Shown one piece after another: positions 4,019 through 38,726 of a DNA stretch of 64,000 nt. Source of the stretch: Apophysomyces variabilis (taxonomy: Eukaryota > Mucoromycota > Mucoromycetes > Mucorales > Mucoraceae); the NCBI GenBank assembly GCA_002749535.1, contig MZZL01000138.1, forward strand, positions 372,001-436,000, written 5' to 3'. The position numbers were made by a program, and so were the translations under genes. A model generated the notes under the pieces. It searched no databases. It had not been told where the DNA came from and was given only the letters and a program-made list of their open reading frames with translations. Within the stretch, counting starts at the first letter, position 1; every line of letters begins with the position of its first letter.

Positions 4019-4943
4019 TTATCGCCTCTGCTGTTGCTGTTGCTGTTGTGCCTGTTCTGAAGGTGGGTTTGCCGAAGAGATAAAGAGAAGAGCACCAGCC
4101 AAAAGAAGGTACCTAATAATCCAGTTGAGTGATCCCTTCCATACAGCGGTAAAAGCAAAATTGTTACCAATATTTCTGAAAGAAAGTTTTCTCAGGTTCT
4201 TCTTCCTTTTCCTCATATTCACTTTGCGCTTCAGTTCTGGTAGCAGGCCGCTTTGGTTGCTGAGGTCTACCCAATAGTATCGGTCTGAAATATACATGAG
4301 CTCAAGATGAGATATCCTCATTTTTATCCCTACTTTGGTCCCTCAAGTGCTTTTTTTACGGTGACACTGCTGGAGAAAGGCTTGGTTGCCAATGGTAGCT
4401 TTTCGACAATCATAAGTGCGCTGTGATAAGCGGAGTAGTAGCTTTACCTGAACTTCGTTAGTACATCCGATTCCGTCTGCGAAATAATCAACGTGATATA
4501 CGTTGTTAGCATTGTCCACATGCACTTTGAACTCGTCCTTCCATCCGCTCGCAATTAACTGACACTATGAACGCTTTAATGGATCGTATCCTACCGTGAT
4601 AAAATGCTCACATATTTCACTGATGATAGCATAATGTTGCCGCTGCGTTCGTCCTTCACTTTGACCTGATACAGTGCCTGTGGATCGCTCACTTCGAATT
4701 GAACTTCGTGGGTAGACACATATACTGGTTCTTGGTGCAGATTAATAATTTCACCTCGTTTTTGAAAATGCTCGCCCTGCTTATGATACACAGACAACTG
4801 AACCAAGGTAACTTTTTCAGTTCAAATTGCAAAAATTTTGTTTAGACCTCAACCTTTTCCTGTGCCTTTACTCCGAGATTCAAGACACATAAGTAAATAC
4901 ACAAGTAAAGTGGAATCGCTTTTAAAAGGGATGAATGAAGCAT
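4019..4943 (-). CDS. EMC10: ER membrane protein complex subunit 10 (EMC10)
   Basis: Subunit of the ER membrane complex, which inserts transmembrane helices into the ER membrane. The ATG at 4943 opens a signal peptide (MLHSSLLKAIPLYLCIYLCV) ending near AQEKVE. Joining six exons gives a lumenal domain with LSVYHKQGEHFQKRGEI, LIASGWKDEFKVHVDN, NVYHVDYFADGIGC, VTVKKALEGPKPILLGRP, an acidic linker (SEYEEKEEEPEK), the family-typical TFFQKYW, then one C-terminal helix (YLLLAGALLFISSA) and a short Gln-rich tail with seven Q. Five introns are inferred, all GT-AG; the fourth splits the codon for the Lys of EGPK. The ordered match to EMC10 (KRGEI, HVDN, EGPKP, FFQKYW before the helix) is good. The whole gene is within one kilobase and nothing is missing. 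Confidence 0.85.
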
Positions 4944-14928: not shown

Positions 14929-17076
14929 CTAGATCCCATCAGGTTTTACTGGTTGCAAAGTGTGGAAAGGGATTTGGCCGTCAGGCTTGCTAGATTCAAG
15001 GTCCTCAATGACGTTTCCTGCGTTCGCTGGATCGGTCGGAGTCATGATGAGGGTGGTGGAGGGCGTATGGTTTCGGCCGCCCTGTCTCAGGTGATAGTCG
15101 TTGTAAGGCGGAGCTGGGTTTTCGAAGAAAGGGACGTTCTCTATGCGCACTTTGTTCTCTGTCTCGCTATAGTAATGGCTGCCCTCAAGGTTGCTATGGA
15201 GGACAGAAGGTGCTTCTGGACTTGCCGGATCGTTATGGGTTCTTTGGTAAGATGGCTCCTCTTTGTTATCGTTCAAGTCAGACGATGCAGTGGTCGTCAG
15301 AGCTTGATGTTTTTGCTGCCGTTTTCTTCGGATTAGGAAAAACACGATAAGCCCTGCAATGGCGCCGCCCTAATTGAATATTGAAGGGTCAGACAGGAAT
15401 GCCATTCCAGGAAAAGAAAACTTACACCGACAACTACGCCAACAACAACGCCCACAATGAGCCCAACATTGTTGCTGCTATCGTCAGATGGCACTTGAGT
15501 AATTTGATCATATAAGCCATCTGCGCGGTATAGACTCGTCCATTTCCAGTGTACAACATCCATCACGTGGAAATCGTTTCTTTCTTGACCACGACTATCC
15601 ATACCAAAAAGAATAAGCATCGAGTTGTTGTGTAAGATGGCTATATCCGAAAACAGATCAATAAGTTTCTTTCACCTTGCCTTGTCCTGTTCTTTGTGTG
15701 AACCTACCTGAATGTCCAAAACGAGGGCCAGCCCCTTCCAAAGGACCCAGGTCTGTGATTTGGGTCCAGATAAAATTGGTAGTGTTCAAAGTATAGAAAT
15801 AATCATCCGCTGTCGCTCGAGGATCATCAGGATCGCCTATATCCGATAAGCCACGTTTAGTGAATCTAACCTAGCTATGAAAAAGCATCTCGTCTTACTT
15901 GGAGCAGCACCACCATAGATCGCAATTAAGTCAGAATTTGGCACTAGCAGACAACAATCATTAATCTATGTCTTTCGCACGATTTCCTATTTGCTTACAT
16001 TGGACGGCTGTATGGTATTGTCTTGGAGTTGGCAACTTGTCTCCGTTGGCTGTGTTTAGTGTCCATGCAACTTTTACCGTGTCGAAAGTCAATATGTCGC
16101 TCATGCGTGCCGGATTCAATGTGTAAGGGTTCGGAAATGCCGGGGCGGTTTGATTGATGGAGCTATCCATAAAGGCATTGTATCCTCCGATATAATAGAT
16201 GATGTTGTTGTCACTCGACATCGTAGCTGTGCTTCCGATACGTCGCACATTTTGTGGGAGGTAAGTGACACGACTGACTCCCTGCCACATGAACTAAAAA
16301 CAAGTTTCGTTTTCCGGGTTCACTTTGTCTCCGCTTGTTTTTTTTGTATATCTTACCGAAGCATCGATGATCGAGAACGCATCCCAATAACCAATACCAT
16401 TAGGGTATCCCGTAGCTTTCTCACTGTAATAAAAATTAAATTCATTCTTTACAAAATATGGAAAAGGAAGAATAAGACCTACCTCACGCCACCCCATACC
16501 CAGATACGGTCACTAGCATCTAACGCAGCCAGTGCTCCACGTCTAGAAAAAAGGAGTTCGAAGGTTAATTTCAAACGATCTCGGTGTGAAGGTAGTTACA
16601 CTTGGTATGTTTTTGTATCGACCGTTGTCCAGGTATCTGTATCTGCGTGGTATACTGTGGTTTTGTTGACTAGAGGTCTGGTATTATTTTGTCCGAGACC
16701 ACCATAAATCAGATAACCTGTGACGCGACGAAGAGGTACTATTGGGAACAAGCAATTCTTTTCCAGCTGAAAATTTTGGCTTGGAAGAGCAGTCCATTGA
16801 GTATAAGATGTCGTAACATTAAAATCCTTAGAAATATCGAGGGAATAATGGTCGTTCAAAGATTGTAGTGTAGTGCCTCCAATCGAACTACGGCCTCCAT
16901 AGCAATAGATCTTTTGGCCAACAAGAGCACAGCCTGTGACAGAAGAGAAGGATAAATTTCATAAAGTTCCTAGTAAAACGGTAGCTTTGTGTGAGCATAC
17001 CTCCGTTGAATCTCGTTCCTGGTGTAACAGCAACAACACAGGTAGCTGCTGATAGCAACAGCAGACTAAATTTCAT
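14929..17076 (-). CDS. kelch-repeat type-I membrane protein
   Basis: Secretory-pathway protein with an extracellular kelch propeller. The ATG at 17076 begins a signal peptide (FSLLLLSAATCVVAV). Kelch-type blades are visible in several exons: GYLIYGGLGQNNTRPL with YHADTDTWTTV, IIYYIGGYNAFMDSS with LTFDTVKVAWTLNTANG and PTPRQYHTAV, and a later one with VVHWKWTSLYRA. A membrane helix follows (NVGLIVGVVVGVVVG spliced to GGAIAGLIVFFLIRRKR) and a cytoplasmic tail of about 135 residues, polar, Pro/Asn-rich, ending QPVKPDGI. At least six short introns are needed; one interrupts the membrane helix. The ligand or role is unknown; kelch propellers often mediate binding, and such proteins recur in Mucoromycota. 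Not an enzyme by anything seen here. Confidence 0.85.
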
Positions 17077-17199: not shown

Positions 17200-20045
17200 G
17201 CTATTTTTTAAATGAATCTTTGCGCGACTCTACGCAACATGGTTGTGCAACCGGTGAGAGTAATGGCTAGGGCTGCATTGGCATTACTGCTCTTTGGTCG
17301 TAAACGCCTGTCGAACTGATGGGCACTCTGAATTCACGCATGACAAAGCTCCGTTGACATTGAAGCTTTTGTTTTTGTTGATCAATGGTTCTGGTGGCCT
17401 TCGGAATGTTGGATGAGCTCATAGCAAAACGTGCAAGTTTTTCATGTACGAAACTCGTTATGCACTGGAAATACTATCGATGCTCTTCGCGCATCCGCTT
17501 GCCCCACATGCATTTCCCTTCAGCGGACTAGCTATGTCGGTAACACCTCCCCCAATGCACATCACAAAGGATGCGCTATCGCCTTTTGCGGTATCGTGAA
17601 CGAACTTTCTTTAGCAGCTAGCAAGTCGTATGCTCTTTTGGTTGCTAAATGCTGGGTGAGTGCTCGCTTAAGAGAGCATTTTGGATGGTGAAAATCACGG
17701 ACTGGTTCGCCAGCAAGCCGTCCGAACCTATTGCAACAATAAGCTACTCTGATGGCAAAGTATTCATCTGCCTTGTATTTCTTCTGGTCCTGAAAATATA
17801 TGCATGGACTGTTTGGAAAGTATTTTTCTCGCAGAGACAATTGTAGCTTCTGCAGCTGTGATTATACAGGTGAGCGATTCTGTCTAGCCTTTGTCAGGTC
17901 AGAATATGCATCCATTCTCGTTCTTCTGTGTCTAGTTCTCTTGTACATATTTTTCGCATCGAGAACAGATTTGTTAAACTGTTTGAAATTTCCTGTGTTG
18001 CAGAGACTTTTGATTCCAAGTTTCTGATCGTTGTTTCAACAGACTCGAGGTTCGCCTTATTTGCAGCGATGGAGCGTGTCTCTTGACATAGCTCGTTGGC
18101 TATCACCGTTATTAACCCGTCGTTCTGCGTTTCCTTTCGCACTGAGAAACGACTGCATGACGACTCGATTCGATAAGAGCCCCATCTAGAATGGCGACAT
18201 TTCTATCCTTGATACTAATTGATTTCCGAACCTCAATCCCTGTTCCTTGCAGTATGTTCCAACATGTGCAAATCGAAAAAGGATCCCGGAACTTCGTGAG
18301 GATATTTACGAGTCTTCTGATACGGAAGTTATTGGGCGCGAAGGCGAACATTGCAGTTGTAATGCATCTATGTGATTAACAAACGTCTCGTAAACGCTCG
18401 TTTCATACCGGTTCATCAAGTGGAGCGTAGTGGAACTGACAAAGGATACATCATTCTATTAAAGATATCGTAACCAGCGACATGCAATATGGAGCTGACA
18501 AGGAAAAAGAATGGAATTTGTAGGAAAGGTGGAACTTGTCGTTGCCACCAGTTTTCTTTTCTCGACTCTAATGGTCTATGTAGTAGTTTCTTCGGCGTCT
18601 TTTTTAAACTTTCGATTTGACTCGGTGAGGTTTTTTTAACCATCATCGCCACTATCGACTGCTATGTTCTTCTTCGTCTGTTGCTTGATCTTCACTATCG
18701 CTCTCCCTATTACAATTGACATTATCCAGAAAACTCGCAAGTTCTTCAGTGCTGAACCAACTTTCTCAAGCCCACAAAGGTTGTATCACTCTGCACAGTA
18801 TGATGTTCCAGCTGCTGTTACGTAATACCACTTTTTGATAGTAGTATGCGGTCTACATCCCTTTTCAAACCGTACCCTGAAGACTGACCCAGCTCGTTCG
18901 TCTGCTTTGCTGAAAGTCAATTAGACAGGTGATATAGAGATCTAACTTCTGTCTTCTGTAATTAGTTATTGACAAGTCCTTCGCTAGTCTCGCCACACCT
19001 GTTTCTGTCTTTTATTCCGCGTCTTGGCGGATAGATCTCCTTTCTATCGGGATTCTTCTTTTCTTTGATTCCTTTTCTCTGACGCATGTTTTGTGATCAT
19101 TTGTGTATTTTCCTTCTTGTTGATAGGCAAGATGTAAGCCGACTATGATTCATAGAACATATTCCAAGAGCTTTAACAAATCTACTTCACTGTAAATATT
19201 GCCAAGATTTGCAGCATACGTGCGGGTCTCAGTAGCAATAAAATTTGTCAGATCTGAAGAGGATTTTAACAAGTCTAGATGTGGGGAGATTGACGCACAG
19301 CCCATCCCACAAAGAACGTACACTCAACCTTTGCTTTCTTTTCGAGTTTGCGAAGATGGTCTTGCAGATCGTGTTCAGGCGGTGACACCAATATGCAGTC
19401 TTGATGGTCCAAAACGTCCTTATCCCAGAAGTGAAAGTTTTTCGGTAACAAATCAGCAATGCGGAACTTGTTCAACTTATTTGCCGCAGAAGATCGCTGT
19501 GCATAGGCTTGGTCATCGTCTGCAACGTCAGCAATGGTATCACTTAAATCCACAGTAGCTCTATGGACTATACCCGTGACAATTTTCTTCTCGTTCTCAC
19601 TGAGGTCTGAACGGAATGTCCTTTGTAAGGATAGTTAGCATGTGCGTATTTTCTTCTTTTCTGCGCTCGCTGCATTCATTCTCTTAGTCACTTGCCTCGT
19701 CAGTCTCCACGTCAGTCTCCACATCACCTTTAACGCCCGCTCTTTGATCACGCACCGTTTTACTTTTGGTCTCTTGTTCTTCCTCTTTATCCGCGACGCC
19801 TTGTGTAACATATCCATACATATGTCAAAGCGAGCGGGTTGCAACACATGCCATTCCTCAATGGCGTTGAAATTCCTTCCTAAAGTTTTCTGGAACGTTT
19901 TAGGATGCATGCAATTTTCCATAATGGTTGTGCGCCCTGTGTACACTCCTCTGAGGGGTCTCTTATCGTTGGTAATGTAGTGCCGGTTTTGTTTTCTGTT
20001 CGTACCCGATGTAGTTTGGCTTTCGGTATCTTTTGCTTTGTACAC
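17200..20045 (-). pseudogene. decayed mobile element with a TnpB/Fanzor-like C-terminal zinc ribbon
   Basis: Minus-strand remnants in three frames, with many stops. The 3' part reads NEFRT-stop-KTCTFCYEL (17459-17415), then after a frameshift CVNSEC (about 17340-17323), then after a second shift NANAALAITL (17285 downward). This follows the order DE(F/Y)xTSxxCxxC ... CxxxxC ... NRDxNAAxNI of TnpB, IS605 OrfB and eukaryotic Fanzor proteins, with the RuvC Asp (RD) already lost. Just upstream is a Gly-rich GGG...KGN stretch like their IGDG...KG segment. More upstream open pieces (17562-17840, 19275-19553, 19635-20045) may be earlier parts of the same protein, but I could not match them to domains. 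There is no intact frame, so it is inactive. The boundaries are guesses. Confidence 0.42.
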
Positions 20046-20940
20046 TCAACTTTGTACTTTGCAACGTAGGACGTCAGAACATGGATTGATATGGTTAACT
20101 AAGTTCGCAGTGCTTTTGAAATCTCCAAAGCTGGAAAGCGGCTTTCCGGAATATATAAATTGATATCGTGAAAGATAGCTACAGGAGTTGGATCGTGCCC
20201 AACCTTCGTTCTCGCCGTGCGGCAACAGTATTTCAAGTATTATGCCTTGTTAACGAGTATGGACTGCTACTGACAAGCAAACCAAAATTTTTTTTATCAC
20301 AGGTTCAAAGCGATACGATCGTTCTCGTCCGCAAGAGGTATGCTACAGGTGCCCTTGCAGGCTCGTTCTGCTGCTAACAACGTATCTTCTGCTTTCAAAA
20401 GTCCATCCTCAGAATACTAGATTTTGTCTACAAGCAATTTCCTGTTCAGCATGCTATCGTGCCAAGCAATGGCAAAAAAAAAATTCAAGCTGTTTCCACT
20501 CCCACGTATCGGGAAAATTAACGTTAATTTCCATGTATCAATAGAACAACTGCAAGAACTGATTTATCTGAATCAGTAATTAATATCGTCGGTATATTAG
20601 AGCATGTTCTGTTCATAATTTAAAATGAGAAAAGAGAATCAAGGGGAATGGCGGAACAGGATCACTAGGCCTATCACCTTCGTCCGCTTGTATTTGATCT
20701 ATGGCTTCCGTTTAGAGAGATAAAAATCAATTCTTGTCTGGAGCCAAAAAAAATTGCAAACCGCTATGTAGATAGGTAGGTTGATGATTACCTCATATTC
20801 AATTTAGTTCAGCCAATCCAAAAGCCTGACACCTTTTCTTTCTGCTATCGCATAAGTCATACTATCAAGAATACTAGCGTTTCTGTTGATACTCAATCTC
20901 CCTTCGATGTATCAGTTTCCTGAGTCCACTGATTGACCTC
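20046..20940. other. unassigned stretch between two relic-like segments
   Basis: About 900 bp with a 69-codon plus-strand frame (20168-20377) of no recognisable type. It may belong to the decayed element to the left; nothing definite. Confidence 0.4.
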
Positions 20941-20943
20941 TCT

Positions 20944-21258
20944 TTAGCTGTACGTTGCTGGTACCATACGGAAAAAGAATTTACGGAGAGCATAAGCCCA
21001 CGAGTTGTTTTCCATAACCTGAGCACTGGCGGTTTGAACGATGGCATAGATGTGGAGAGGTTTTGGCGAGTTCCGTGTTTTTACAGTTATGGGCAAATAT
21101 GCCATATTAAAGGGTGAACGACCGTCAACAAGGATCAAGCTAAGTACGATTAGAGAAGTGTCAACAAAATGAATCAGAGAAGTCTTTCTGTTAGATTGTT
21201 CGTCCGTGCGATACTCTATGTCCATCAATGTACGCCTGCGTACCACAGAATGGGACAT
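20944..21258 (-). CDS. hypothetical open frame, possibly a relic
   Basis: A 104-codon frame (MSHSVVRRRTLMDIEYRTDE ... ALRKFFFRMVPATYS) whose reading frame remains open upstream on the minus strand to about 21330 (EDVYTYTYEEYNLSDVNI), so it may be the 3' exon of something longer. The amino-acid composition is protein-like, but no family is recognised and no upstream start with good context is seen. It could be a further piece of the neighbouring decayed element or a small host gene. Confidence 0.3.
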   Translation of the reverse strand: MSHSVVRRRTLMDIEYRTDEQSNRKTSLIHFVDTSLIVLSLILVDGRSPFNMAYLPITVKTRNSPKPLHIYAIVQTASAQVMENNSWAYALRKFFFRMVPATYS

Positions 21259-21556: not shown

Positions 21557-22320
21557 GGGGGGGGGGTATTTACATATGGAAGTAACAAAGAAAACCAGCA
21601 AATGATGGAAATAGACTAAACAGGGATGGTTTAAGTTCACAAATGGTGGAATGACACTAGACGGTTTAAATGCTCTGCCTTGACTGAAGATTTGCGTTCT
21701 TTGGATGGGATGGACTTTGCGAACTGTTTCAATGAGATCGTCATGCTGGACATGGGGGGTTTATCTTGGTGATCTTCGTTTGGATCGTCCTCAATATGGC
21801 TTGAGAGACTGTTACAGCTTTTGGTTGTTCGTAGATGGCGTTCACGAAGATAAAGTGGATCGATATCAGACTGTAAGAAAGCCATGGTGAAATGAGTAAA
21901 AAGAAAGAAAGCAACAAGAAGTTGAACTTGATTCCAGAGTGTCTGAGCTGAAATGATTTACTTTTATAGTTTTCATTTTGTGCTCGGAACAAGCCAGGCT
22001 CGAATAGACCAGCCCACGTTCCAGGCCCAAAAATAGCATGTCATATACCCCCGATTCGGCTAGTTTCAGCCCGTCCAACAAAATCATTTTGAATAAGCTG
22101 AGGCCGATCATTTGACTGCATACACTCTCTAGCACTTTCGAAAGTCAGCTGCAGAAGTGGACGATGTCACTGAAAACAGAGAGAAAGAGAGTAAAGAGAA
22201 AAAGCATTCGATTTCAATCAACCTTCCCTCTCTCGCTTTCATTGGATATTAATGGCTCACCCTTAAGGTTGGGTTAATATCTCATTGACATCATGAACCC
22301 TTCACTATGGGCCCCAAAAC
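21557..22320. repeat. copy 1 of a 764-bp direct duplication flanking the N gap
   Basis: Starts with a run of ten G and ends at ...GGGCCCCAAAAC directly before the Ns. By eye it is identical to 22565-23328 at a constant offset of 1008. Preceded by an 18-A-type run (about 21522-21540). Best read as the end of the left contig overlapping the start of the right contig. Confidence 0.95.
21637..21885 (-). CDS. hypothetical protein, 3' exon (copy 1)
   Basis: An 82-codon frame (MAFLQSDIDPLYLRERHLRT ... LVSFHHL). Read without the first codons it may be a last exon: a splice acceptor (CTTACAG) precedes SDIDPLYLRERH, and two upstream donors are in phase with it, one after KMKTIK and one after KLAESG. 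Upstream coding-like segments extend to about 22140, but the start is not resolved because the copy ends at the gap. No domain recognised: acidic/basic polar protein with SSHIEDDPNEDHQDKPP. Since the duplication is probably an assembly artefact, this and the copy at 22645-22893 are likely one gene. Confidence 0.4.
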   Translation of the reverse strand: MAFLQSDIDPLYLRERHLRTTKSCNSLSSHIEDDPNEDHQDKPPMSSMTISLKQFAKSIPSKERKSSVKAEHLNRLVSFHHL

Positions 22321-22564: not shown

Positions 22565-23328
22565 GGGGGGGGGGTATTTACATATGGAAGTAACAAAGAA
22601 AACCAGCAAATGATGGAAATAGACTAAACAGGGATGGTTTAAGTTCACAAATGGTGGAATGACACTAGACGGTTTAAATGCTCTGCCTTGACTGAAGATT
22701 TGCGTTCTTTGGATGGGATGGACTTTGCGAACTGTTTCAATGAGATCGTCATGCTGGACATGGGGGGTTTATCTTGGTGATCTTCGTTTGGATCGTCCTC
22801 AATATGGCTTGAGAGACTGTTACAGCTTTTGGTTGTTCGTAGATGGCGTTCACGAAGATAAAGTGGATCGATATCAGACTGTAAGAAAGCCATGGTGAAA
22901 TGAGTAAAAAGAAAGAAAGCAACAAGAAGTTGAACTTGATTCCAGAGTGTCTGAGCTGAAATGATTTACTTTTATAGTTTTCATTTTGTGCTCGGAACAA
23001 GCCAGGCTCGAATAGACCAGCCCACGTTCCAGGCCCAAAAATAGCATGTCATATACCCCCGATTCGGCTAGTTTCAGCCCGTCCAACAAAATCATTTTGA
23101 ATAAGCTGAGGCCGATCATTTGACTGCATACACTCTCTAGCACTTTCGAAAGTCAGCTGCAGAAGTGGACGATGTCACTGAAAACAGAGAGAAAGAGAGT
23201 AAAGAGAAAAAGCATTCGATTTCAATCAACCTTCCCTCTCTCGCTTTCATTGGATATTAATGGCTCACCCTTAAGGTTGGGTTAATATCTCATTGACATC
23301 ATGAACCCTTCACTATGGGCCCCAAAAC
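22565..23328. repeat. copy 2 of the 764-bp direct duplication
   Basis: Begins with ten G immediately after the Ns and matches 21557-22320 base for base as far as I can read; the sequence continues beyond CAAAAC into unique DNA leading to the NIC96 3' end. Confidence 0.95.
22645..22893 (-). CDS. hypothetical protein, 3' exon (copy 2)
   Basis: Same frame as at 21637-21885. In this copy the upstream sequence is continuous to NIC96, so if the gene starts within the 300 bp before the NIC96 stop it would have to be small (under about 250 residues). No domain recognised. Confidence 0.4.
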   Translation of the reverse strand: MAFLQSDIDPLYLRERHLRTTKSCNSLSSHIEDDPNEDHQDKPPMSSMTISLKQFAKSIPSKERKSSVKAEHLNRLVSFHHL

Positions 23329-36708: not shown

Positions 36709-37517
36709 TTCAACAGGGAAATACAAGCGACCGAGCGCGCCCCACGTCGAAACTTTTTGTTTTCTCGACGGGGACGCTCTGAAAGGAACCCCAGTCACTT
36801 GCCAAGGTGACGCAATCCATGATTTTTGGCGCTCGGTGGCGGGAAAAAAATTTTTGGTCTCGTTCTCAAATTTTATCTTTTACAATGCATTAAAAAAAAG
36901 CTTTAACTAATGCCAGTTCATTGTCCAGTAGACAATATGTCGGTTAAACACGCTGGTCTCCCCTGCTCACCAATATGTCAACCGTGAGGAAAGGTTGGCT
37001 GAATAAAACTTTATAGCATATCAACTTGCTATTTTGTTCACTGTGAACGCATAGAGTAATAACCTAGAGCCACAGAAAGGTTTTCCTTTCTTCCGGATTG
37101 CATGGAAAAATGACTCAAACCGTCTTATTGTTTGTCTTACGATAGCTACCTTGACTTCTGACGATGCATGCCATAGGCAGATGAACCAATGCTTCTTTGC
37201 TTTTCACTCTCGACATGAAAGTAGGCAAAAGACAACCTTAGTTATGTTTATGTTAGAATCAATTGCACGAGATGTGTGAAATCTGATTTTGCTTTTGTGA
37301 AACATACAGCAGATGGTCAATACAATTGAAAAAAGCAAGGCCATGCTGGTTTATCTAAATCCAAGGATGTTTATTGTTTTTATTTCTAGATTTGATGAGG
37401 CAGATGATCGTTCATGGTAACACAACAAGGATACTGGCTGACGAACAGGTCAACAGATGTGAGCCTTCTGATGTTTCTCCTTTCTTCTTTCTCCTCTTTC
37501 TCTCATTATATACGTAT
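36709..37517. other. divergent intergenic region ATP2 / unknown gene
   Basis: About 800 bp expected to hold the strong ATP2 promoter. No gene supported. Confidence 0.5.
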
Positions 37518-38726
37518 ATGGCGTTGTTTGACCTGATAAAGCTAAGACGACGGAAACTCCGTAAAGACGCTTCTGGACGGATGGTGTCAAGCACTGTTGA
37601 TGCCTCTGGAATTCTAGTAAAACCGTTTCCACCACTTGAAATAAGAATCAAATCCCCTTCTGATCTCCTTGATTTCGCTGGCCATCCGCAGTTATCTAGA
37701 ACGGTTACTACGACGTTGGATACGATCAAAGATACACCATCAGCTGCAATACAACCCGATCCATCATCACCACCTGTTTTATTGATGCCAAAACCAACAA
37801 GGGCAATTACACCTACTCGACGAGTGCTGAATGCTGGAAATTATGACAAGACATTAATTGAAGATACAACTTCAAGCATAGAATCTGCTGAGAGATCACC
37901 GTCAATTCTACAGGTATCGCGAAATCATGCGTCGAAATGCATTCAATCTGAGCCCCTGCAATCGTCCGAACCAAGGAATGGTGCATTATCGAATTTGGCC
38001 GCAAATAGTTCCAACCCTTCCGAAACGATTAATCCTGGTCTTGATGGCTCGCACAGCAAAAATAAAGGACGAATGGAATCAAGCCATCTTATCGAACTTT
38101 CGCAACAATTGGATGATCTTCGTCAAGAAAGGAAACGCTGGGTAAAACGGGAACAACAGTATCGACGACAACAAGAGCAGCTTTTAACCACAATCGAGCA
38201 CCTTCAGAGGCTTTCCATGAACCACAAAAAAGTTCGTTCAAGATCACTCTCGTCGAAGAGCAATATATCATATTCAGAAGAAGAAAACGGTACGGAAAGC
38301 GATTATGATAGTAATTGGTGCTATTATGACAGCGATATCAGCCATCCATGGATGTCTTGGGATTACTCAGTATCCCCCTGGTATCATGGGAATCTTGACA
38401 TACATCAAAAGCCGTTTCCATCCTACAATACCTCTAACGTTCCGAGTGAACCATGTAGTGCATCTAGATCCAATTTCGAGGAATCAGATGAGGAGTATGA
38501 GAATGATAACATTTGGGACATATTTGGGTATCCATATCATCAGTTTAACGGAAACCCGCATGCTTGGGCTCTGTATTTTCAACCGACTGTTCCATATTGG
38601 TATGAACGACAACCTGTTTCTCGACAAAAACAGGAATTGCTTGCAAAAAAGCATAATTTGTATAAGCAGAGGCGAAAAGACTCCCTCCGTCGATCATCAA
38701 GTTACGAGCTGTTTCGTTCTCGGTGA
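37518..38726 (+). CDS. hypothetical coiled-coil protein
   Basis: Not recognised. A single exon of 402 residues from ATG 37518 (MALFDLIKLRRRKLRKDASG); the frame is open upstream to 37374, but those residues are Phe/Leu-rich leader-like. The first 110 residues include PPLEIRIKSPSDLLDFAGH; the middle is Ser/Pro-rich and likely disordered; residues around 225-285 form a coiled coil (ELSQQLDDLRQERKRWVKRE, QYRRQQEQLLTTIEHLQ); then a striking Trp/Tyr-rich acidic region (NWCYYDSDISHPWMSWDYSV, NIWDIFGYPYHQFN) and a basic tail with phosphorylation-like sites (KDSLRRSSSYELF). Composition suggests a scaffold or regulated adaptor; this is only inference. Confidence 0.75.
   Translation: MALFDLIKLRRRKLRKDASGRMVSSTVDASGILVKPFPPLEIRIKSPSDLLDFAGHPQLSRTVTTTLDTIKDTPSAAIQPDPSSPPVLLMPKPTRAITPTRRVLNAGNYDKTLIEDTTSSIESAERSPSILQVSRNHASKCIQSEPLQSSEPRNGALSNLAANSSNPSETINPGLDGSHSKNKGRMESSHLIELSQQLDDLRQERKRWVKREQQYRRQQEQLLTTIEHLQRLSMNHKKVRSRSLSSKSNISYSEEENGTESDYDSNWCYYDSDISHPWMSWDYSVSPWYHGNLDIHQKPFPSYNTSNVPSEPCSASRSNFEESDEEYENDNIWDIFGYPYHQFNGNPHAWALYFQPTVPYWYERQPVSRQKQELLAKKHNLYKQRRKDSLRRSSSYELFRSR

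Follow-up and report, generated by a model that had tools for sequence, protein, structure and literature searches.

The DNA analysed here, called the window, is a stretch of 64,000 nucleotides (nt) from the mucoralean fungus Apophysomyces variabilis (contig MZZL01000138.1, positions 372,001 to 436,000). Its minus strand very probably carries the dead copy of a mobile element, with a gene for a very large Fanzor-like protein of the TnpB superfamily, which would be guided by RNA in the life cycle of the element. The recognisable remains, a 5' part and a broken gene, cover positions 17208–21164 of the window; these limits are set by DNA similarity and by the last stop codon, and the true ends were not found. 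A preliminary description, made from the letters alone, had placed a decayed TnpB/Fanzor-like element at 17200–20045 of the minus strand. Place and strand were right, the interval too narrow, since DNA similarity continues to about 21164. The strings on which that description relied (NEFRT-stop-KTCTFC, CVNSEC and NANAALAITL, with a Gly-rich block upstream) were all located on the minus strand between 17553 and 17256, in that order and in two different frames.

Relatives of the broken gene were found in two multicopy families of the same genome, E1 and E2, in a third relative, E3, and among database proteins (P0001–P0007). A hidden Markov model (HMM) of the family, built from seven relatives (P0001–P0004, P0006, E2, E3), was run against 2,072 stop-free window pieces of at least 20 amino acids (aa), and returned 11 rows. 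Nine are on the minus strand, run from 19634 to 17287 in the order of the model, and span model positions 223 to 1303, neighbours overlapping slightly. The best two have E values of 5e-5 and 8e-5 over all pieces. The rows outside the collinear set lie at 37359–38723 (plus strand, E 0.13) and 16214–16399 (minus strand, E 0.37). Individual pieces are short and mostly weak, as fits a chance resemblance in non-coding DNA. Such an origin is refuted by the order of the pieces, by DNA similarity to other copies, and by a control with 40 dinucleotide shuffles of a 3.4-kb stretch, in which the best piece scores 18.1 bits against a shuffle maximum of 3.6, and the nine best pieces sum to 64.9 bits against a maximum of -1.9.

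The remnant in the window

All pieces of the broken gene are on the minus strand, and are described from the N-terminal side; model positions refer to the family HMM, and rows quoted without E value are weak alone. An open piece of 136 aa (19635–20045), probably the N-terminal part of the broken protein, has no HMM row and matches C115 (E 2e-15) and C11 (1.7e-7) in tblastn searches. An N-terminal domain remnant (RSDLSENEKKIVTGIVHRATVDLSDTIADVA) follows at 19278–19634 (model 223–320; tblastn match to E2, E 1e-3), and continues in another frame at 19153–19323 (model 372–409). The middle domain has left remnants at 18419–18661 (IPFFFLVSSILHVAGYDIFNRMMYPLSVP; model 665–694) and at 18115–18375, the latter read in two frames (overlapping rows 18189–18305 and 18115–18375; model 747–800) and ending with IKDRNVAILDGALIE, where E1 has ITPHQMAVIDGDVKK. 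A coiled-coil remnant spans 17897–18202 (model 793–855).

The C-terminal pieces include the RuvC region ahead of the zinc ribbon (RDFHHPKCSLKRALTQHL) at 17565–17861 (model 1129–1192, E 5e-5), and the Gly-rich block GGGVTDIASPLKGNACGASG (E1: GTQGTGVGLRLKGHLKRGG), which was located in the sequence at 17494–17553 and matches model positions 1202–1227 as part of the piece 17461–17610. NEFRT-stop-KTCTFC, at 17424–17459, contains the shifted-glutamate motif and the first Cys pair, separated by an in-frame stop; its E1 counterpart is NEHRSSQLCVYC, from residue 1149. The second Cys pair lies in INKNKSFNVNGALSCVNSECPSVRQAFTTK (17287–17418; model 1276–1303, E 8e-5), with NGALSCVNSEC at 17355–17323. The RuvC-III remnant SSNANAALAITL, at 17256–17291, was aligned by eye to NRDVQAAVAIGL of E1, the Arg-Asp pair being replaced by Ser-Asn.

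The expected RuvC-I segment, GTDYG in relatives, should lie between coiled coil and RuvC region. In the window, fewer than 200 nt separate the sequences which match model positions 793–855 and 1129–1192; this segment is therefore missing, and no GxDxG- or AxDxG-like motif was found at 17200–18300 in the three minus-strand frames. The window copy cannot encode a working enzyme, as it features stops, frameshifts, no RuvC-I motif and Asn where the RuvC-III Asp is expected; no open frame with a complete D-E-D triad is present.

At the DNA level the remnant resembles copies on C115, C11, C71, C69, C78 and C95 (66–80% identity in separate stretches, reaching about 21164 upstream). The C115 and C11 copies, read in translation, are likewise interrupted, and no intact member of this subfamily was found among these two and the other four places, which were read only in part. 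At C71:134080–134716, next to an E2 copy, two segments far apart in the window copy lie close together; this locus (L009) is perhaps an internally deleted member of the same subfamily. Pfam searches with seven single window pieces gave four weak and unrelated rows, all below cut-offs. A composite of the C-terminal window pieces, joined with X at stops and joins, matched no Pfam family and no PDB entry, and the window has no Rfam match.

Relatives and Fanzor membership

Compared with the 38.7-Mb genome, the C-terminal composite gave 72 matches at E ≤1, two of which are the remnant itself. The best of the others are the 12 E1 copies (1.9e-14, 29%). Weaker matches include some places which the zinc-ribbon model PF07282 marks as well (as C27:199784, E 9e-5, 26%), and thereby tie the composite directly, though weakly, to the known family. 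The E1 copies are near-identical and measure 4,961 bp as aligned, a few target bases included; two which were compared are 99.9% identical. E2 elements measure about 6.6 kb, and form 16 near-complete rows of at least 96% identity by the 5' end, plus partial ones; two compared copies are 97.6% identical. Both families are multicopy and young, having multiplied recently. Relatives elsewhere in the genome had been anticipated in the preliminary description, and are found in these families, which have an open gene model.

The E1 gene, modelled in copy L066, has five exons separated by GT-AG introns of 50–55 nt, and encodes 1,251 aa, about twice the usual Fanzor1 length. Residues 550–1251 are 100% (rounded) identical to the hypothetical protein EC973_007782 of Apophysomyces ossiformis (P0001). 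Other relatives are proteins of Linnemannia (P0002; 1,752 aa, 28%), Halteromyces (P0003) and Hesseltinella (P0004–P0007). With only about 8,000 candidates scored per search, the database searches yielded 3, 5 and 1 proteins, the last being the query itself; none of the seven proteins carries a precomputed Pfam domain.

The E1 protein features a D-E-D triad, the shifted glutamate typical of Fanzor proteins, and a zinc ribbon. The RuvC-II glutamate is placed six residues ahead of the first Cys pair in E1 (NEHRSSQLCVYC), P0002 (NEMRTSKVCIFC), P0003 (NEHRTSMICPFC), P0004 and P0005 (NEARTSMVCPYC) and E2 (TDEHRSSQTCVFC), which is the position given for the Fanzor glutamate in PMC10711439. The Fanzor motif, in the form given by Bao and Jurka, D-X(125,275)-[TS][TS]xx-[C4 zinc finger]-X(5,50)-RD, was rendered as a regular expression with the zinc finger as CxxC-x(8,60)-C-x(2,5)-C. 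It is present in seven of ten sequences (P0001–P0005, E1, E2) and in none of 10,000 shuffles. Some of these sequences are not independent, since E1 and P0001 represent one protein, and P0004 and P0005 are near-identical. In six of the ten the motif starts at the GxDxG Asp; P0002 fits only from another Asp, its GTDRG being too far off. The motif is missed in P0006 and P0007, which are short and probably fragments, and in the E3 copy L070, where a Cys is replaced.

Profile-profile comparison of five family sequences with 18 PF07282-positive open reading frames of the same genome gave P 7e-8 and a probability of 94.6% (0.1% in the reversed control). The 18 frames derive from 30 loci filtered for presence of the glutamate-Cys motif, so that a match at this motif is favoured; L058 and L059 were dropped from the family set because both exons were not found. 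When the C-terminal half of E1 was compared with PDB sequences, a single match reached E ≤1, the Fanzor1 protein SpuFz1 of Spizellomyces punctatus (E 0.13, not significant). The order D...E...CxxC...C(x)nC...RD is the same in E1 and SpuFz1 (PDB 8gkh), and E1 shares with Fanzor1 also the glutamate spacing, a C4 zinc ribbon and a eukaryotic mobile-element carrier. Most Fanzor1 proteins are 600–700 aa long according to PMC11423790, and DPG at RuvC-I is described as near-exclusive in PMC10711439, hence as a typical rather than absolute feature; E1, by contrast, features DYG, and has large N-terminal, middle and coiled-coil regions.

The genome apparently holds several Fanzor families besides the one formed by E1, E2 and the remnant. 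PF07282 marked 57 places over cut-off among 150 scored rows, and several equal-scoring places with open frames of 279 aa are included (C27, C79, C95, C107, C110). The remnant might thus be one more ordinary Fanzor1 or Fanzor2, of 600–700 aa and PF07282-positive, since such genes are seemingly numerous and some weak composite matches coincide with PF07282 rows. We consider this very improbable: the best matches of the composite outside the window are the E1 copies, N-terminal and middle window pieces match the large family, and none of the 150 PF07282 rows scored, of 164 candidates, falls at an E1 or E2 position. Comparisons support a very large and divergent lineage (DYG at RuvC-I, 1,251 aa in E1, no Pfam match). 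The initial view of a dead copy from a eukaryotic RNA-guided-nuclease family is supported as to the Fanzor/TnpB superfamily, and refined in that the lineage is not that of typical Fanzor1/2. No description of this family was found among the papers listed in the open literature on Fanzor/TnpB, Mucorales and Apophysomyces, subscription papers and supplements being outside the search.

Ends, insertion sites and right-end hairpin

The bases preceding the 12 E1 copies read AAATACC in ten, AAACACC in one and AATTACC in one; columns -7, -6, -3, -2 and -1 are invariant. On the right, E1 ends with AGATACC; the next base is G in 11 of the 12 copies, and flanks diverge beyond it. E2 ends were read on the left in 11 copies and on the right in ten, which makes ten pairs. 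On the left, GTACT (nine copies) or GTCACT (two copies) is followed by two nucleotides (NN) and TAGGGTATAAC; on the right, TTGTTATACT is followed by NN and the flank. The left NN is AT in seven pairs, four with a differing right NN and three with AT on both sides; in the other three (AA, AG, GT) it equals the right NN. When joined, E2 ends give the inverted arms GTTATAC...GTATAAC. Both E1 and E2 insert without classical target-site duplication (TSD), adjoining a fixed motif which is echoed by the right end. End motifs of either type were searched in the window, with no convincing result.

For the E2 copy at C94:2181039–2187783, the one case among 22 joined flank pairs, two element-free paralogous places (76–78% identical) were found. 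They read ATACAAATAAATG (C86) and GTACAAATAAATG (C119), and are compared with GTACTAA and AATAAATG around the element. The junction loses nothing and AA is doubled; the preceding base, A in both paralogues, is T next to the element, and 29 nt of both paralogues are absent 16 nt to the right of the element. This single comparison agrees with insertion lacking classical duplication. The search scored 40 of 312 candidates, and other empty sites were possibly missed. C63:33959–34009, which resembles the left flank of one E1 copy, was rejected as an empty site as the other side mismatches the right flank.

One E1 copy (L066:1560–1652; L082) sits exactly at the end of a repeat which recurs near C63:33959; the repeat terminates there in GGAAACACC, a variant form of the target motif of E1. 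Among E1 left ends (L066:1652–1700; copies L079–L081 on C95, C87 and C30), short repeats in CTCAGTCCTGAGACTCA are lost step by step, in a pattern that suggests loss through a hairpin.

Elements of this kind could also be non-autonomous DDE-type transposons in which Fanzor is a passenger, a situation described for Fanzor1 elements of Mariner or MuDr type. Left and right NN are equal in six of ten E2 pairs, as in a 2-bp duplication, and AA stands on both sides in the empty-site comparison. In the remaining four pairs, however, the two nucleotides differ, the left ones being the AT of the element; moreover, targets are preferred on one side only, the target motif is echoed at the right end, and no long terminal inverted repeats (TIRs) were seen in E1 and E2. 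A passenger origin is on balance unlikely. Classical TSD would disallow four of the ten pairs, while all ten are compatible with conservative exchange around a 2-bp core; the opposite class expected under such exchange (left NN, right AT) was not clearly seen among them.

PF00239 (serine resolvase) and PF01797 (Y1 transposase) have no match genome-wide at E 0.1, a search which could miss exon-split or divergent genes, and in which Crypton tyrosine recombinases were not included. As positive controls, the two models were detected in 10 and 6 of 14 genomes, respectively. The serine resolvase or Y1 TnpA gene which marks IS607 or IS200/IS605 elements was accordingly not found. The large protein itself, through its N-terminal half or RuvC domain, might be the recombinase which moves living relatives, instead of assisting as a nuclease guided by RNA. 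By eye, no other long gene was noted in E1 and E2, the genome features no PF00239 or PF01797 match, and E2 ends are precise, with a 2-bp exchange signature. Set against this, Pfam finds no recombinase domain in E1, internally deleted copies without most of the gene imply that some enzyme acts in trans, and the family searches have the limits just given. A recombinase role is judged to have a low probability, and the reading of the protein as a Fanzor-like nuclease is followed below.

A hairpin, CYGTC-GCTAT-GACRG, is common to E1 and E2 and starts about 80–110 nt inside the right end. The two families agree in loop and inner stem; of the outer pairs, two show compensating changes, one from U-A to C-G (in E2 and its relative L106) and one from C-G to U-A (in E2). 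The pattern CNGTCGCTATGACNG has 38 sites in the genome, the reversed pattern none. By position, 12 sites are in E1 and 16 in E2, and the remaining ten all resemble E1 or E2. Five of these ten (L100, L104, L107, L108, L109) are internally deleted, passing from near E1 position 877 to about 4,380–4,400, and lack most of the gene; they share one deletion, are mutually 77–81% identical, and appear to form an older non-autonomous E1 family. Hairpin invariance among L100–L109 is biased because loci were chosen by that pattern. Among 12 diverged E1 relatives chosen without reference to the hairpin, one match ends before it, and GTCGCTATGAC is exact in eight of the other 11 and not in three; as such copies share ancestry, retention is only moderate evidence of constraint. 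The hairpin is a candidate guide-RNA scaffold. A guide-RNA end had been suspected in the flank of the remnant; the candidate end is found in E1 and E2 only, and the window has no exact hairpin match, and 12 two-mismatch matches against 11.0 expected by chance.

Several results weigh against a Fanzor-like element with a guide RNA. Of the nine collinear pieces, seven have weak scores by themselves (E 0.16 to 1.8). RuvC-I is GTDYG, GTDRG or GIDCG in all ten sequences, not DPG, and the C-terminal half of E1 matches no Pfam family, TnpB and Fanzor domains included. An AlphaFold2 model of P0003 with a 7-sequence alignment (predicted local distance difference test score 49, predicted template modelling score 0.24) is too poor to test the fold. 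Compensating change concerns two hairpin pairs only, which are broken in one and two other rows of ten, respectively. Folding energies of five end stretches, the E2 right-end one including 40 nt of flank, are unremarkable (z -0.8 to -1.7), and those of the right ends are not significant (z -1.2 to -1.7).

RNA-guided cutting by these elements would be hinted at only indirectly, by the hairpin and by the motif beside the left end. The protein of a living element would bind RNA made from the right end, and would take its guide from the flanking DNA adjoining that end. Once the element is excised, the motif would directly adjoin the right flank, and thereby the sequence matched by the guide. The protein would cut such restored empty sites beside the motif, and the element would be kept or copied back. 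It is distinctly unlikely that living relatives are self-sufficient, one giant RuvC/zinc-ribbon protein and the RNA of the right-end hairpin both moving the element by conservative site-specific recombination and guarding its sites.

Prokaryotic TnpB elements also insert beside a fixed motif (target-adjacent motif) echoed at the right end, as E1 and E2 do, encode a protein with RuvC and zinc ribbon, and are expected to carry a structured RNA at the right end. TnpB is several times smaller than the E1 protein. In contrast to prokaryotic elements, E1 and E2 are eukaryotic, the E1 gene is multi-exon, and no Y1 or resolvase TnpA was found genome-wide. TnpB-only, IS200/IS605 and IS607 elements resemble E1 and E2 in making no TSD, according to PMC3627910. 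From descriptions in the same source, the Mucor elements MCi-2 and MCi-5 are similar to E1 and E2 as they reside in Mucorales, code for Fanzor, are unclassified and have no recognised TIRs, and differ from them by TSDs of 11–12 bp (MCi-2) or putative TSDs of 6 bp (MCi-5). Over a 6-kb part, copies of MCi-2 are described there as nearly identical. Further differences from E1 and E2 are a partial Crypton gene in MCi-2A and a Harbinger-type gene in three copies of MCi-5.

Surroundings of the remnant and biological meaning

Upstream of the remnant a perfect direct duplication of 764 bp (21557–22320 and 22565–23328) flanks a run of 244 N, and most likely represents redundant contig ends at a scaffold gap. 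On the other side, a minus-strand gene (about 17076–14929) starts with the signal-peptide-like MKFSLLLLSAATCVVAV about 130 nt past the last stop codon of the remnant; judged by eye, with no search made, its product looks like a Kelch-repeat protein.

E1 and E2 represent Fanzor-type elements which are young and multicopy, have exact ends and carry a candidate RNA hairpin; PF07282 misses both. The predicted target-adjacent motif is AAATACC for E1, and GTACT or GTCACT for E2. If the living relatives were self-sufficient, they would be a eukaryotic single-gene RNA-guided transposon without separate transposase. As exact ends, motif and hairpin are at hand in E1 and E2, two questions become directly testable: how Fanzor serves eukaryotic transposons, and by which enzyme Fanzor elements without long inverted repeats are moved.
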